Shown: one piece after another, positions 34,707 through 37,761 of the stretch
Position numbering within the stretch: the first letter of the stretch is position 1
Layout of the letters: each line of letters opens with the position of its first letter
Assembly (NCBI RefSeq): GCF_001583495.1
Contig: NZ_LQAQ01000042.1
Coordinates: forward strand, 124,001 to 188,000
DNA: 64,000 nucleotides
Reading direction: 5' to 3'
Source: Flammeovirga sp. SJP92
Lineage (GTDB): Bacteria > Bacteroidota > Bacteroidia > Cytophagales > Flammeovirgaceae
Made by a program: the position numbers and the translations under genes
Notes under the pieces: generated by a model
Told to the model about the DNA's origin: nothing
The model's input: the letters and a program-made list of their open reading frames with translations, nothing else
The model's database searches: none

Positions 34707-35594
34707 ATGAATCAAACTAGCACCTTATTATTAGGTATTGCCTTGGCAATTATTATGCTTGGCATGGGATTATCATTGGTACCTGATGATTTTAAAAGGA
34801 TTCTGAAAAAACCTTGGGCAGTTTTAATCGGATTGGTTTTACAAATTGTTTGTTTGCCAATCATTGCATTTGGCATTGCTTATTATTTAGCATTACCGTC
34901 TTTCATTGCTTTAGGGCTTATTATTTTGGCGGCATGTCCTGGCGGGCCAACCTCCAATCTTATCACGCACTTGGCAAATGGAGATACTGCATTGTCGGTG
35001 ACACTAACGGCGGTAAGTAGTTTTGCCACTATTATCACTATTCCTTTTGTGATCAATTTAGGTTCTTCCTTTTTCTTGAGCCAAGATCAAACTATTCTTT
35101 TGGATGTACCAGATACTATCAAGAAGATTATGATTGTCAGTATTATTCCAATCATTTTAGGAATGAGTATTCGAAAGTTTTTACCTGGCTTTGCTCAAAA
35201 AATGGCAAAACCTACCAGAATTGCCTCAGCAGTGATTTTGATTGTAATGATTGTCGGTATTGTTGTGAAAGAAAGAAATAATGTAGTGGCCTATTTTGCT
35301 CAGGCAGGAATGGCTACACTCTTATTGAATGTCTTCACCATGGGCTTAGGCTATGGAATTGCACGATTAGCTCAATTAAAATCAGCACAAGCCACTTCTA
35401 TTGCCATCGAAACAGGTATTCAAAACGGTACAATGGCCATCACGATTGCAATTGGTATTATGGGAAGGGTAGATCTTTCTATTGCAGCAGGTGTTTATTC
35501 ATTGATTATGTTTTTCACTTCAGGAGCAATCATCTTTATTTTTTCTAAGAAAAACAAAAAAGAGGAATCATTAGAGTTGTCGGAATATAAATAA
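34707..35594 (+). CDS. Bile acid:sodium symporter family (SBF/BASS) transporter
   Basis: A 295-residue polytopic inner membrane protein with about nine or ten hydrophobic helices. The family signature CPGGPTSNLITHLANGDTALSVTLT (about 77-101) lies at the sodium-binding crossover, and a second conserved block (AIETGIQNGTMAITIA) lies near 228-245. BASS proteins move organic anions with sodium; bacterial substrates vary (pantoate, keto-acids, bile acids), and the substrate is not readable here. It is followed by a strong terminator. Confidence 0.93.
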   Translation: MNQTSTLLLGIALAIIMLGMGLSLVPDDFKRILKKPWAVLIGLVLQIVCLPIIAFGIAYYLALPSFIALGLIILAACPGGPTSNLITHLANGDTALSVTLTAVSSFATIITIPFVINLGSSFFLSQDQTILLDVPDTIKKIMIVSIIPIILGMSIRKFLPGFAQKMAKPTRIASAVILIVMIVGIVVKERNNVVAYFAQAGMATLLLNVFTMGLGYGIARLAQLKSAQATSIAIETGIQNGTMAITIAIGIMGRVDLSIAAGVYSLIMFFTSGAIIFIFSKKNKKEESLELSEYK

Positions 35595-35613
35595 TAACTC
35601 TAAATAGCTATAC

Positions 35614-35650
35614 AATAGCCCTATGATATTCGTGTCATAGGGCTATTTTT
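35614..35650 (+). terminator. Terminator of the SBF transporter gene
   Basis: AATAGCCCTATGA (35614-35626) pairs with TCATAGGGCTATT (35635-35647), then T. Confidence 0.9.
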
Positions 35651-35675
35651 ATGTATTTTTACGAAAAAATATGTT

Positions 35676-36026
35676 ATGGCAGAAAGAAGAGAAGTAAGAG
35701 AGGAAGAACTCGTTTTAGTAAAGCATTTGATACAATTGGGAGGGGAAAACCCCTCTGATTTTGAGTTGCCAATGATGGTAGATGATTATGAAAATGCGGT
35801 AATGGGAAGTATTAATTTTACGGAACCTGAAAAATCACCTTATAAAGGAGATATAGTTCAAGTAGTTTACAGAGATGTAGATAGGGTTCCTGTGGTAATT
35901 ACTTTGACCAAAAATGAAAACAATGAAATCTTGGATATGGATTTCTGGAAAAAAGATTTTTCAAAACTTCAACAGTATCCAAAGCCTGAAGATGTACAAA
36001 TCTTCAATAATAATGGATTAGTTTAG
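35676..36026 (+). CDS. Hypothetical protein, DUF6984-like
   Basis: A 116-residue cytosolic acidic protein. The order of elements (REVREEELVLVKHLIQLGG, a MVDDYENAVMGSINF block, GDIVQVVYRDVDRVPVVITLTKNENNEILDMDFWKKDFS) resembles the DUF6984 family of Bacteroidota. That assignment is from memory of the pattern and should be treated as tentative. No function is known. It lies 86 bp upstream of the SigZ gene, but the promoter-like motif between them suggests that sigZ has its own transcript. Confidence 0.65.
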   Translation: MAERREVREEELVLVKHLIQLGGENPSDFELPMMVDDYENAVMGSINFTEPEKSPYKGDIVQVVYRDVDRVPVVITLTKNENNEILDMDFWKKDFSKLQQYPKPEDVQIFNNNGLV

Positions 36027-36067: not shown

Positions 36068-36093
36068 GCGTCTTTTTCAGTTTTTTACGTCTA
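36068..36093 (+). promoter_or_regulatory. Candidate autoregulated SigZ promoter
   Basis: GCGTCTTTTT, 10 nt, CGTCTA. The same two blocks with identical spacing recur at 36680-36705 before the Cys-rich gene. CGTCTA is a typical -10 for ECF sigma factors, and the 15-bp spacing after GCGTC fits ECF promoters. The last base is 20 bp before the sigZ start. Confidence 0.65.
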
Positions 36094-36112
36094 CAATCCA
36101 AAAGTATAAAAT

Positions 36113-36655
36113 ATGAATACAAAGGACATTTGGAATACTTTTCATCAAGAGTTGGAAGGGTTTATTGCTTCTAAAATTAATGAAAAAGACGAGGCAGAAG
36201 ATATTCTTCAAGATGTTTTTATTAAAATACATGAGAAGAAAGCACTCCTGAAAGATGAGAAGCAATTGGGCAGTTGGATTTATCAGATTACAAGAAACTC
36301 AATTATAGATTTTTATAGAAAGAGAAAACAGAACAGTACTTTTGATGTAGAAAAGATTGATTTACCTGCGGAATTTGATGCTACAGACTCTAATCTTCAA
36401 GCCTGTGAAGCTTGTGTGAAGCCTTTTATTTTACAACTACCCGAAAAATATCAAGATGTTTTAATGAAAGTGACTTACCAGCGAGTATCTCAGAAGGAAT
36501 ATGCACAGCAGCATCAATTATCTTATTCTGCTGTTAAATCAAGAGTACAAAGAGGAAGAGAACAGTTAAAGCAATCTTTTGAAACTTGTTGTACACAGGT
36601 AGATGATGGTTTTGGTAATATTTCATTTCAATGTAAATCAGGTAATTGTAATTAA
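36113..36655 (+). CDS. sigZ: ECF sigma factor, SigZ type, with cysteine-rich C-terminus
   Basis: A 180-residue sigma factor. Region 2 (about 8-75) contains DEAEDILQDVFIKIHEK and the -10 recognition helix SWIYQITRNSIIDFYRKRK. Region 4 (about 108-157) contains LPEKYQDVLMKVTYQRVSQKEYAQQHQLSYSAVKSRVQRGREQL. The protein has six cysteines, C98 and C101 (CEAC) between the two regions and C159, C160, C174 and C179 in a short tail. This matches the SigZ family and recalls CorE-type sigma factors that sense metal through cysteines. There is no anti-sigma gene nearby. The tail may sense metal or oxidation directly; that is inference. A matching promoter-like motif precedes both this gene and the next one. 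Confidence 0.92.
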   Translation: MNTKDIWNTFHQELEGFIASKINEKDEAEDILQDVFIKIHEKKALLKDEKQLGSWIYQITRNSIIDFYRKRKQNSTFDVEKIDLPAEFDATDSNLQACEACVKPFILQLPEKYQDVLMKVTYQRVSQKEYAQQHQLSYSAVKSRVQRGREQLKQSFETCCTQVDDGFGNISFQCKSGNCN

Positions 36656-36679
36656 TTTTTTTGTTTTTATACTTTTTTT

Positions 36680-36705
36680 GCGTCTTTTTTTAAAAGTCTC
36701 GTCTA
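36680..36705 (+). promoter_or_regulatory. Candidate SigZ-dependent promoter of the Cys-rich gene
   Basis: GCGTCTTTTT, 10 nt, CGTCTA, the same blocks and spacing as upstream of sigZ, while the 10 bases between differ. It lies 42 bp before the start of the 41-residue Cys-rich protein. Confidence 0.65.
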
Positions 36706-36747
36706 TTAGGGTGAAAACGGATTAATCACCTTTAAAAATAGAATAAG

Positions 36748-36873
36748 ATGAACGATAAGGAAATCAAATGCGCAGAAAATAGCCAATGTACTTGTGATTG
36801 CAACTGCTGTAAATGTACTCAAGAAGAGAGCACAGGTTGTAAATGTACTTCAACTGATGCTGACTGTTGCTAA
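36748..36873 (+). CDS. Metallothionein-like small cysteine-rich protein
   Basis: A 41-residue ORF (ATG to TAA) with 11 cysteines, at positions 8, 14, 16, 18, 20, 21, 23, 31, 33, 40 and 41. The arrangement gives CxCxCxCCxC, CxC and terminal CC clusters, typical of metal-thiolate binding. There is no signal peptide or hydrophobic segment, so it is cytosolic. It does not match the SmtA/BmtA metallothioneins or the fungal types I know, so it may be a new small class. It is 92 bp after sigZ, has its own copy of the putative SigZ promoter, and is followed by a very strong terminator. The likely role is binding of Cu, Cd, Zn or Hg, or acting as a thiol buffer, under SigZ control. That role is inference; the ORF itself is well supported by context. 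Confidence 0.8.
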   Translation: MNDKEIKCAENSQCTCDCNCCKCTQEESTGCKCTSTDADCC

Positions 36874-36890
36874 GCAAAAAAGTTAAACGA

Positions 36891-36936
36891 AAAAGGACCA
36901 TAAGCTGAATTTTAAATCAACTTATGGTCCTTTTTT
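36891..36936. terminator. Bidirectional terminator after the Cys-rich gene
   Basis: AAAAGGACCATAAG (36891-36904) pairs with CTTATGGTCCTTTT (36921-36934), with A and T runs on both sides. It serves the Cys-rich gene and the convergent CAT-like gene. Confidence 0.9.
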
Positions 36937-36977: not shown

Positions 36978-37676
36978 CTAGCGGTTTAATATTTCTTCAA
37001 AATCGGCCATAAATCCTGATAGTACAAATGGATCAAGACTTGAGTGATCAAACGTAATAGACAAAGGAATAAACAACAGATCACCTTGTTGATAACGTTT
37101 GCCAAAATAGAAGTAAGGCCTTGCTGAATCCAAAGCAGACGCATGAAGCTGAAAGCTTGTGAACTGTAAGTTGGGTAAGTTGCCAATAAAATGTGCTGTA
37201 GCCCAAACTAACACAGGTAGAGGAGCAAAATCGCCTTCTCTATTGAAAGCATAGTCTACACACTTTTTATAATTACGGAAATACTCTTCTACTGTAGAAT
37301 TGGCAGGATCTTCTACAATAATTTCAGTAAATCTTGTTTCACCACCTACAGCTATCGGAGAGAAAACGGGTAGGTTATCAAAGACATACCATTCGTTTTC
37401 TAGTTTTCTATACCTAAAATAAGGGTGCTTTTTCATTGCTTCGACCAATGCCCACATTAAGTAAGCGGTAAAAGAAGCTCCTTCATATTTTTTTAAATTG
37501 TCTTTATAATATTGGTAGCCCTTTGTAATATCTACTTGAAGGGTCATTTGTAGATTAGGTTCTCTAACAATCTCTTTTTGGTGAAAAAAATTCAACGACC
37601 ATTGCTCATAAGAACTCACTTCGTCCATTTTTAATTTTTTACCACCGTATTTTTGGAGTAATTCTTCTTTTTCCAT
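36978..37676 (-). CDS. Chloramphenicol acetyltransferase-like enzyme (CatA family)
   Basis: A 232-residue cytosolic acyltransferase of the type A CAT fold. Family landmarks are FTAYLMWALVEAMKKHPYFRYR (69-90), PVFSPIAVG (103-111) and the catalytic segment ITFDHSSLDPF. There H211 and D215 correspond to the catalytic His and structural Asp of the HHAVCDG motif, although the flanking residues differ. Catalysis is therefore possible, but chloramphenicol need not be the substrate; chromosomal Bacteroidota homologues are usually uncharacterised. A TTG seven codons upstream is less likely than the ATG at 37676. Confidence 0.85.
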   Translation of the reverse strand: MEKEELLQKYGGKKLKMDEVSSYEQWSLNFFHQKEIVREPNLQMTLQVDITKGYQYYKDNLKKYEGASFTAYLMWALVEAMKKHPYFRYRKLENEWYVFDNLPVFSPIAVGGETRFTEIIVEDPANSTVEEYFRNYKKCVDYAFNREGDFAPLPVLVWATAHFIGNLPNLQFTSFQLHASALDSARPYFYFGKRYQQGDLLFIPLSITFDHSSLDPFVLSGFMADFEEILNR

Positions 37677-37761
37677 CTTATTTAATTTAGTCTGCAAAGA
37701 TGTTTATTTTTTAAATGATAACACAGTGTATCCAAAGAGATTACTGTAAATAAGTTTAAAT

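Follow-up and report, generated by a model that had tools for sequence, protein, structure and literature searches.

Sigma factors of the SigZ type probably sense soft metals and metalloids, or the related thiol stress, through their own cysteine tail, much as CorE does; we put this reading at about 0.7. We came to it from one locus of Flammeovirga sp. SJP92, within a 64,000-nucleotide stretch of DNA that we call the window, where two copies of one promoter-like motif precede the gene of a SigZ-like extracytoplasmic function (ECF) sigma factor and a tiny cysteine-rich peptide. Computation shows four things: the motif, the linkage of that motif to SigZ, the conservation of the tail cysteines and a recurring set of detoxification neighbours. 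The arrangement belongs with Cys-tailed ECF sigma factors that are thought to sense metal themselves. The features of the locus are these:

36068..36093, plus strand: promoter motif 1, GCGTCTTTTT-N10-CGTCTA, an exact match, 19 nt 5' of the sigZ start
36113..36655, plus strand: sigZ-like ECF sigma factor gene, 180 aa, with Pfam Sigma70_r2 and r4_2 above cut-off
36680..36705, plus strand: promoter motif 2, GCGTCTTTTT-N10-CGTCTA, an exact match, 42 nt 5' of the Cys-rich ORF
36748..36873, plus strand: metallothionein-like peptide, 41 aa with 11 Cys, identified as an ORF
36890..36935, no strand assigned: terminator hairpin with a 19-pair stem, from stem prediction and sequence
36978-37697, minus strand: convergent chloramphenicol-acetyltransferase-like gene, Pfam CAT above cut-off and NCBIfam CatA below cut-off

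In full, the two motifs read GCGTCTTTTT-CAGTTTTTTA-CGTCTA and GCGTCTTTTT-TTAAAAGTCT-CGTCTA, and GTGAA comes after the second. A sequence-only reading of this DNA had claimed a two-block motif with equal spacing in both intergenic regions, 11 cysteines in the 41-residue protein after sigZ, and a terminator behind the Cys-rich gene. The first two claims held, both motif copies being exact, and for the third there is the 19-pair hairpin. The scanner puts this hairpin on the minus strand, yet an A run and a T run lie on its two sides and it faces the convergent gene too; it likely terminates transcription from both directions. The acetyltransferase-like gene has its terminator in common with the Cys-rich ORF. 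On the other flank, 5' of sigZ (34707-36026, plus strand), sit a DUF6984 gene and a gene of the bile-acid:sodium-symporter family, the latter falling in Pfam SBF without an arsenite-transporter match. An RNA element in place of a promoter was considered and rejected, all Rfam matches lying below gathering scores. Sigma-70-type promoter matches numbered five against a shuffle mean of 3.7, close to chance.

Searched with up to three mismatches, the window holds only the two motif copies, each with none. Five of 100 shuffled windows also reached two matches at that tolerance (mean 0.37), and the window test by itself is therefore modest. The genome is more telling: at no more than one mismatch, its 8.49 Mb contain just two copies, and the backwards control gives 0. 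In all nine genomes of the genus, and in one sister genus (L017), a Cys-rich ORF of 41 to 128 aa comes after sigZ, and the motif or a near variant stands 5' of each of the two; the variant -35 forms are GCATC, GTATC or GAGTC. Among the findings that the sequence-only reading had named in advance as refuting it was the absence of the motif or the Cys-rich ORF beside sigZ in relatives; this was checked, and 9/9 genus genomes have both, the motif at times as a close variant. Counted over loci, the same motif or a variant stands at sigZ in 10/10 Flammeovirgaceae, and a regular expression recovers copies downstream of sigZ in 9/10. It missed the copy 5' of the first Cys ORF of F. aprica (L009), which reads GCGTCCCTTTT..CGTCTA; that species has a second Cys ORF, 107 aa long, with a motif copy of its own. 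F. aprica, sp. OC4 and sp. EKP202 are the closest named relatives, with SigZ identities of 88-92%. A stringent genus pattern (TAGACG-N11-13-AAARGAYGCA, the reverse complement) finds 13 sites in the nine genomes, every one at sigZ or a sigZ paralogue, with 0 in the backwards control. In three genus genomes (L108-L110) the motif at the sigZ paralogue precedes a gene for a PatB-type C-S lyase ending in CCSC, and this lyase gene lies directly after the paralogue gene. The window's own genome has a second SigZ-type gene with a Cys tail (L068, G000:C60:79706-80224), with no motif and no Cys peptide alongside.

Does the motif follow SigZ beyond the family? We searched 395 Bacteroidota genomes with a SigZ model and kept the loci of 110 bits or more, 51 in all, from 49 genomes. 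As comparison sets we had 20 other-ECF loci with weaker scores, used as controls, and 10 paralogue loci. The 60 SigZ loci counted below comprise 10 from Flammeovirgaceae, 4 obtained separately and 46 from the 395-genome search; left out are L083 (a stop breaks the frame), L084 (contig end) and L086 (another kind of Cys-tailed ECF). Four of the controls (L087, L088, L099, L103) are themselves Cys-tailed, CorE-like ECFs and were retained as controls. A refined motif, TG[CTA][AGT]TC[CT]TT-x12-14-N[GA][TA]CT[ACT], sought on either side of the gene to a distance of 350 nt, was present at 39/60 SigZ loci (10/10 Flammeovirgaceae, 29/50 other), 3/10 paralogue loci and 0/20 controls. It was found on the opposite strand at 0/60 SigZ loci, and dinucleotide shuffles gave a mean of 0.23 of 60, with 2 the largest. 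It was absent within 350 nt from 21/50 SigZ loci outside Flammeovirgaceae and from 7/10 paralogue loci. The expression was shaped on some of these same loci, and the controls accordingly weigh more than the absolute rate.

A fixed-pattern scan of the 395 genomes gave 27 sites. With a spacer of 10 or 11, 14 of 20 sites fall no more than 800 bp from a SigZ gene and one more is at 4.5 kb; with a spacer of 9, 0/7 fall that close. As evidence the raw counts were dropped: the backwards control was more numerous, at about 60 (counted by eye), than the motif, at 27, and we therefore relied on proximity to SigZ and on the spacer-9 comparison instead. What the comparison shows is a two-block site that tracks SigZ over many families and always faces the gene.

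The site varies between clades. Most have an 11-nt spacer, Flammeovirga and one other group a 10-nt one, and the -10 block takes clade-specific forms (CGTCTA/T, TGTCTA, GGTCTA/C, AGTCTA/T, CATCTA, CGACTA and AGACTA/T). Roughly half of the sites have TGAA some 6-9 nt downstream, at what we infer to be the expected region of transcription start, the start itself being unmapped. Among 37 loci tabulated by hand, all eight with a CGACTA -10 have R or H at one sigma residue, which we take to lie in region 2.3/2.4, and N is found there in the remaining 29, two AGACTA/T loci among them. This covariation may reflect a single evolutionary event. By comparison, the assignment of the promoter to SigZ is strong and we consider it likely to be right; that SigZ binds the motif is inferred, there being no binding data.

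The sigma factor itself meets the test for a group 4 (ECF) protein, with sigma regions 2 and 4 only, both above Pfam gathering scores (PF04542 40.0, cut-off 24; PF08281 35.9, cut-off 25.7). Its best NCBIfam family is SigZ, that of Bacillus subtilis, with a full-length alignment, and it misses both curated cut-offs (NF007215, 181.9 vs 212; TIGR02959, 165.2 vs 168.65), which is why we call it SigZ-like. The NF007215 cut-off is reached in just 3/395 Bacteroidota genomes. Its cysteines are C159, C160, C174 and C179 in the tail, spaced CC-x13-C-x4-C, and C98 and C101 as a CxxC in the linker. Besides sigma-core positions, the columns that hardly vary across 80 SigZ-type proteins are the tail cysteines C159 (77), C160 (73) and C179 (75); in the linker, C101 is Cys in 49/80 and C98 in 13/80. 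In the AlphaFold model of SigZ (mean pLDDT 80.4, pTM 0.48) region 4 is followed by a hairpin that the tail forms, with block pLDDT running from 85 to 65. That this conserved tail is a sensor is an inference. No recognisable anti-sigma gene was seen among the neighbours of the window's sigZ. The test looks at neighbours only and is weak, since Pfam recognised an anti-sigma (FecR) at only 1/20 control loci.

The natural comparison is with CorE and CorE2 of Myxococcus xanthus (former ECF44, now ECF238), which like SigZ are ECF factors with a Cys-rich C-terminal extension, and which have no linked anti-sigma factor and metal-resistance targets (PMC3107203, PMC8999054). The details differ. The tail spacing is C-X4-C-X2-C-X1-C in CorE and CC-X3-C-X2-C-X1-C in CorE2 (PMC9023288), so that the window's SigZ has a Cys tail and fails the CorE spacing test; the linker is CXC in CorE and CxxC here; and CorE is accompanied by a copper ATPase or multicopper oxidase, where SigZ has Cys peptides and ArsI. 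OrbS of Burkholderia cenocepacia (ECF243) offers a second likeness, its C-terminal cysteines being an on-board metal sensor that replaces an anti-sigma factor; it differs in being off with Fe(II), in controlling siderophore genes and in its tail, C-X2-C-X3-C-X5-C (PMC9023288). Our survey also met a different kind of Cys-tailed ECF, with a CxC linker (L087, L088, L099, also L086 and L103), which is possibly CorE-like; in L087, L088 and L099 a P-type (E1-E2) ATPase gene follows directly.

Cys-rich peptides recur beside sigZ. Counting ORFs of 17-130 aa whose Cys content is 18% or higher, no more than 450 nt from sigZ, we found them at 27/60 SigZ loci (9/10 Flammeovirgaceae, 18/50 other), 1/20 controls and 1/10 paralogue loci, with shuffles giving 0.62 of 60. 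The 41-aa peptide matched no Pfam or NCBIfam model at E up to 1, metallothionein models included, and nine other SigZ-linked peptides produced one sub-threshold match (PF12749, 12.1 bits vs 22). Their designs differ from clade to clade without relation, running from TCNC repeats to CCGGGCC and CTCNEC. The 41-aa peptide resembles bacterial metallothioneins such as MymT and SmtA in being very short, about 27% Cys, and rich in CxC and CC; it differs in being apparently under sigma-factor control, MymT answering to the repressor RicR (PMC10141476). Eleven cysteines in 41 residues permit metal binding and no more, and binding by the peptide is inferred. Two smaller kinds of ORF were noticed along the way. 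In L021 and L067 an opposite-strand ORF of 19 aa, MKN.IIQKDGGCCGGLC.C, lies after sigZ. In L064, L074 and L107, where the -10 is AGACTA or AGACTT, or unmatched, a small ORF starting M..EIKILHSSCC lies downstream of sigZ and is followed by an ArsP_1/SaoE-type permease gene.

Detoxification genes recur as well. At some loci an enzyme gene takes the place after the motif, and the products above curated cut-offs are the arsenite methyltransferase ArsM (L039, L040), the C-As lyase ArsI/CadI (L052, L054), PatB (L108), PhzF (L066) and MATE (L041), and GST-like genes too follow the motif in some loci. A Pfam survey of first downstream ORFs covered 48 loci (42 SigZ, 6 paralogue), those without a first downstream ORF of at least 90 aa being excluded. 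It gave nine members of the glyoxalase superfamily, three ArsP_1 permeases, three aminotransferases, two methyltransferases, two pyridine-nucleotide disulphide oxidoreductases and two PhzF proteins. The first downstream ORFs of the 20 controls included none of those families, with three P-type ATPases and one FecR among them. The ArsP_1-type permeases encoded after some SigZ genes score better with the SaoE and Cu/Zn exporter models than with the arsenic model, in every case below cut-off.

ArsI gives the sharpest association. It occurs in 19/395 Bacteroidota genomes (18 above cut-off), 15 of which have SigZ, and in 14 of the 19, from eight families, it lies downstream of sigZ on the same strand within 1.2 kb. 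The Fisher p for co-occurrence is 8e-12, a figure that ignores kinship, six of the 14 adjacent cases coming from one family. As a general partner of sigZ, ArsM was rejected: it is present in 192/395 genomes and placed beside sigZ in at least 3 (G306, G157, G280). The window's genome has neither ArsI (E up to 1e-12) nor ArsM (E up to 1e-40), and the arsenic link is therefore inferred from other clades.

Cysteine tails turn up on the neighbours, too. Proteins encoded after the motif end in CCSC (PatB), CCAANCC and SSCCG (GST-like), ACC (ArsI), KCC (a 116-aa protein) and GCAKTC (a phosphatase-like protein). Two or more Cys within the final 15 residues were found in 18/187 neighbouring ORFs at SigZ loci, in 5/25 at paralogue loci and in 3/45 at controls. 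The 18 include three Cys-peptide ORFs and one SigZ fragment, and most of the remainder follow the motif; the three control cases look spurious. No such tail was seen in the ArsI of L052 and L083, or in ArsM, MATE and PhzF. We also note that L021 and L067 carry, after sigZ, a motif-led PAP2/acid-phosphatase-like gene whose protein ends in GCAKTCE(Q).

Outside Bacteroidota we have examples, not rates, because the loci are few and were chosen by SigZ homology, in a scan of genome contigs and a plasmid search (15 records, 10 examined). The expression used was looser, and chance matches are also to be expected. In Paraferrimonas, Cognaticolwellia, Vibrio cortegadensis and Photobacterium, TCGTCTTTT-type sites lie 5' of Cys-tailed GST-like genes. 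Two other Vibrio plasmids have an ArsR/SmtB-type gene (above cut-off) directly 5' of sigZ, with no clear site. Nonomuraea and Rhodococcus sp. DMU1 have a weaker site 5' of a Cys-rich peptide adjoining sigZ, and R. opacus has such a peptide beside sigZ without a clear site. Two Priestia plasmids carry the same -35 and spacer with CGTCAC, 5' of an aldo/keto reductase gene that runs divergently; neither plasmid showed a Cys peptide. A Hymenobacter plasmid has GCGTCTTTTT-N10-CGTCTA before its sigma gene, with ArsC and ACR3 genes some 2 kb off. Near the Nonomuraea sigZ (L175), in stretches of about 0.7-2.7 kb and 3.6-3.9 kb, we observed a flavoprotein ending in GGSCCG with a weak, below-cut-off ArsO match, an ArsR/SmtB-type gene above cut-off and an ORF of 68 aa in which GCCG occurs four times as a repeat.

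How might the module work? In our reading, a SigZ-type factor would direct RNA polymerase to TGCGTCYTTTT-N10/11-CGTCTA promoters, probably without an anti-sigma factor. A toxicant with a liking for thiols, of which a trivalent arsenical or a similar soft metal or metalloid is the likeliest, would bind the CC-x13-C-x4-C tail together with the linker CxxC and so switch the sigma factor on. In Flammeovirga the regulon we found, sigZ and the metallothionein-like peptide, would form a two-promoter stress module in which the peptide sequesters the toxicant and self-activation of SigZ amplifies the response; in other clades SigZ would turn on Cys-based sequestration or the conversion of arsenicals. 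Trivalent arsenicals are the leading candidate for the inducer, an inference from neighbours in those other clades, and vicinal cysteines binding trivalent organoarsenicals have been described for ArsI itself (PMC12607644).

The observation made from sequence alone was right, and its meaning largely right. The view that SigZ drives its own expression and that of the Cys-rich protein has comparative support, with no experiment behind it: the site tracks SigZ, faces the gene, keeps a spacer of 10 or 11 nt, and in one clade changes its -10 with the sigma factor. Self-activation did not prove general: in several clades we found the motif solely ahead of the target gene or of a peptide-sigZ pair. 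The neighbours (ArsI, ArsM, ArsR-type, PatB, GST-like and thioredoxin reductase) agree with the proposed response to metal or thiol stress and narrow it towards soft metal(loid)s of the arsenic type. That narrowing does not come from Flammeovirga itself, where just the peptide is seen.

A bolder version would make SigZ a cross-phylum factor that directly senses trivalent arsenicals, perhaps methylarsenite, and whose regulon is doubly marked, by the promoter and by grafted Cys tails. The tails would then be a shared metalloid-handling tag on unrelated enzymes, of which the free Cys peptides would be the minimal form. On balance we think this joint claim less likely than not.

Other explanations fare worse. 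The same module could answer to thiol or redox stress, from electrophiles or disulfide stress, with the tail oxidised or alkylated and the peptide serving as a thiol buffer. In its favour, genes for GST-like proteins, PatB, thioredoxin reductase and aldo/keto reductase adjoin SigZ or follow the motif. Against it, the ArsI, ArsM and ArsR/SmtB-type neighbours are specific to metal(loid)s and the peptide designs resemble metal-thiolate ligands, and we think it unlikely. Less likely by a clear margin is that the peptide acts back on SigZ, as a metal-transfer partner or an anti-sigma-like modulator, and does not serve general sequestration; peptides do adjoin sigZ in 27/60 loci, but their designs are unrelated between clades and elsewhere enzymes take the peptide's place. 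Finally, the motif could be an operator for another regulator, such as an ArsR/SmtB or response-regulator site, as the CGTC common to both blocks (a possible direct repeat) and the ArsR/SmtB-type genes adjoining sigZ in a few plasmid records might suggest, but the fixed orientation (0/60 on the opposite strand), the fixed spacer, the lack of symmetry, a location immediately 5' of genes and a -10 that varies in step with the sigma factor leave this very improbable.

Sensing by the tail therefore remains our preferred reading of SigZ. A 2023 table gives the role of SigZ simply as 'ECF' (PMC10141391), and our search of the open-licence PMC literature found no report linking SigZ to arsenic, Cys-rich peptides or the motif. 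A CorE-like way of working has already been suggested for the Cys-tailed groups ECF287 and ECF288 (PMC8999054), and not, in the literature we searched, for SigZ. With this analysis the orphan SigZ family gains a promoter, a regulon and a candidate class of inducer, which a simple reporter experiment can test. If the reading is true, SigZ would be another kind of self-sensing sigma factor alongside CorE and OrbS, ArsI in Bacteroidota would often be encoded next to a sigma factor gene, and bacteria would make very different tiny Cys-rich peptides, many of them too short for routine annotation, for one regulatory role.
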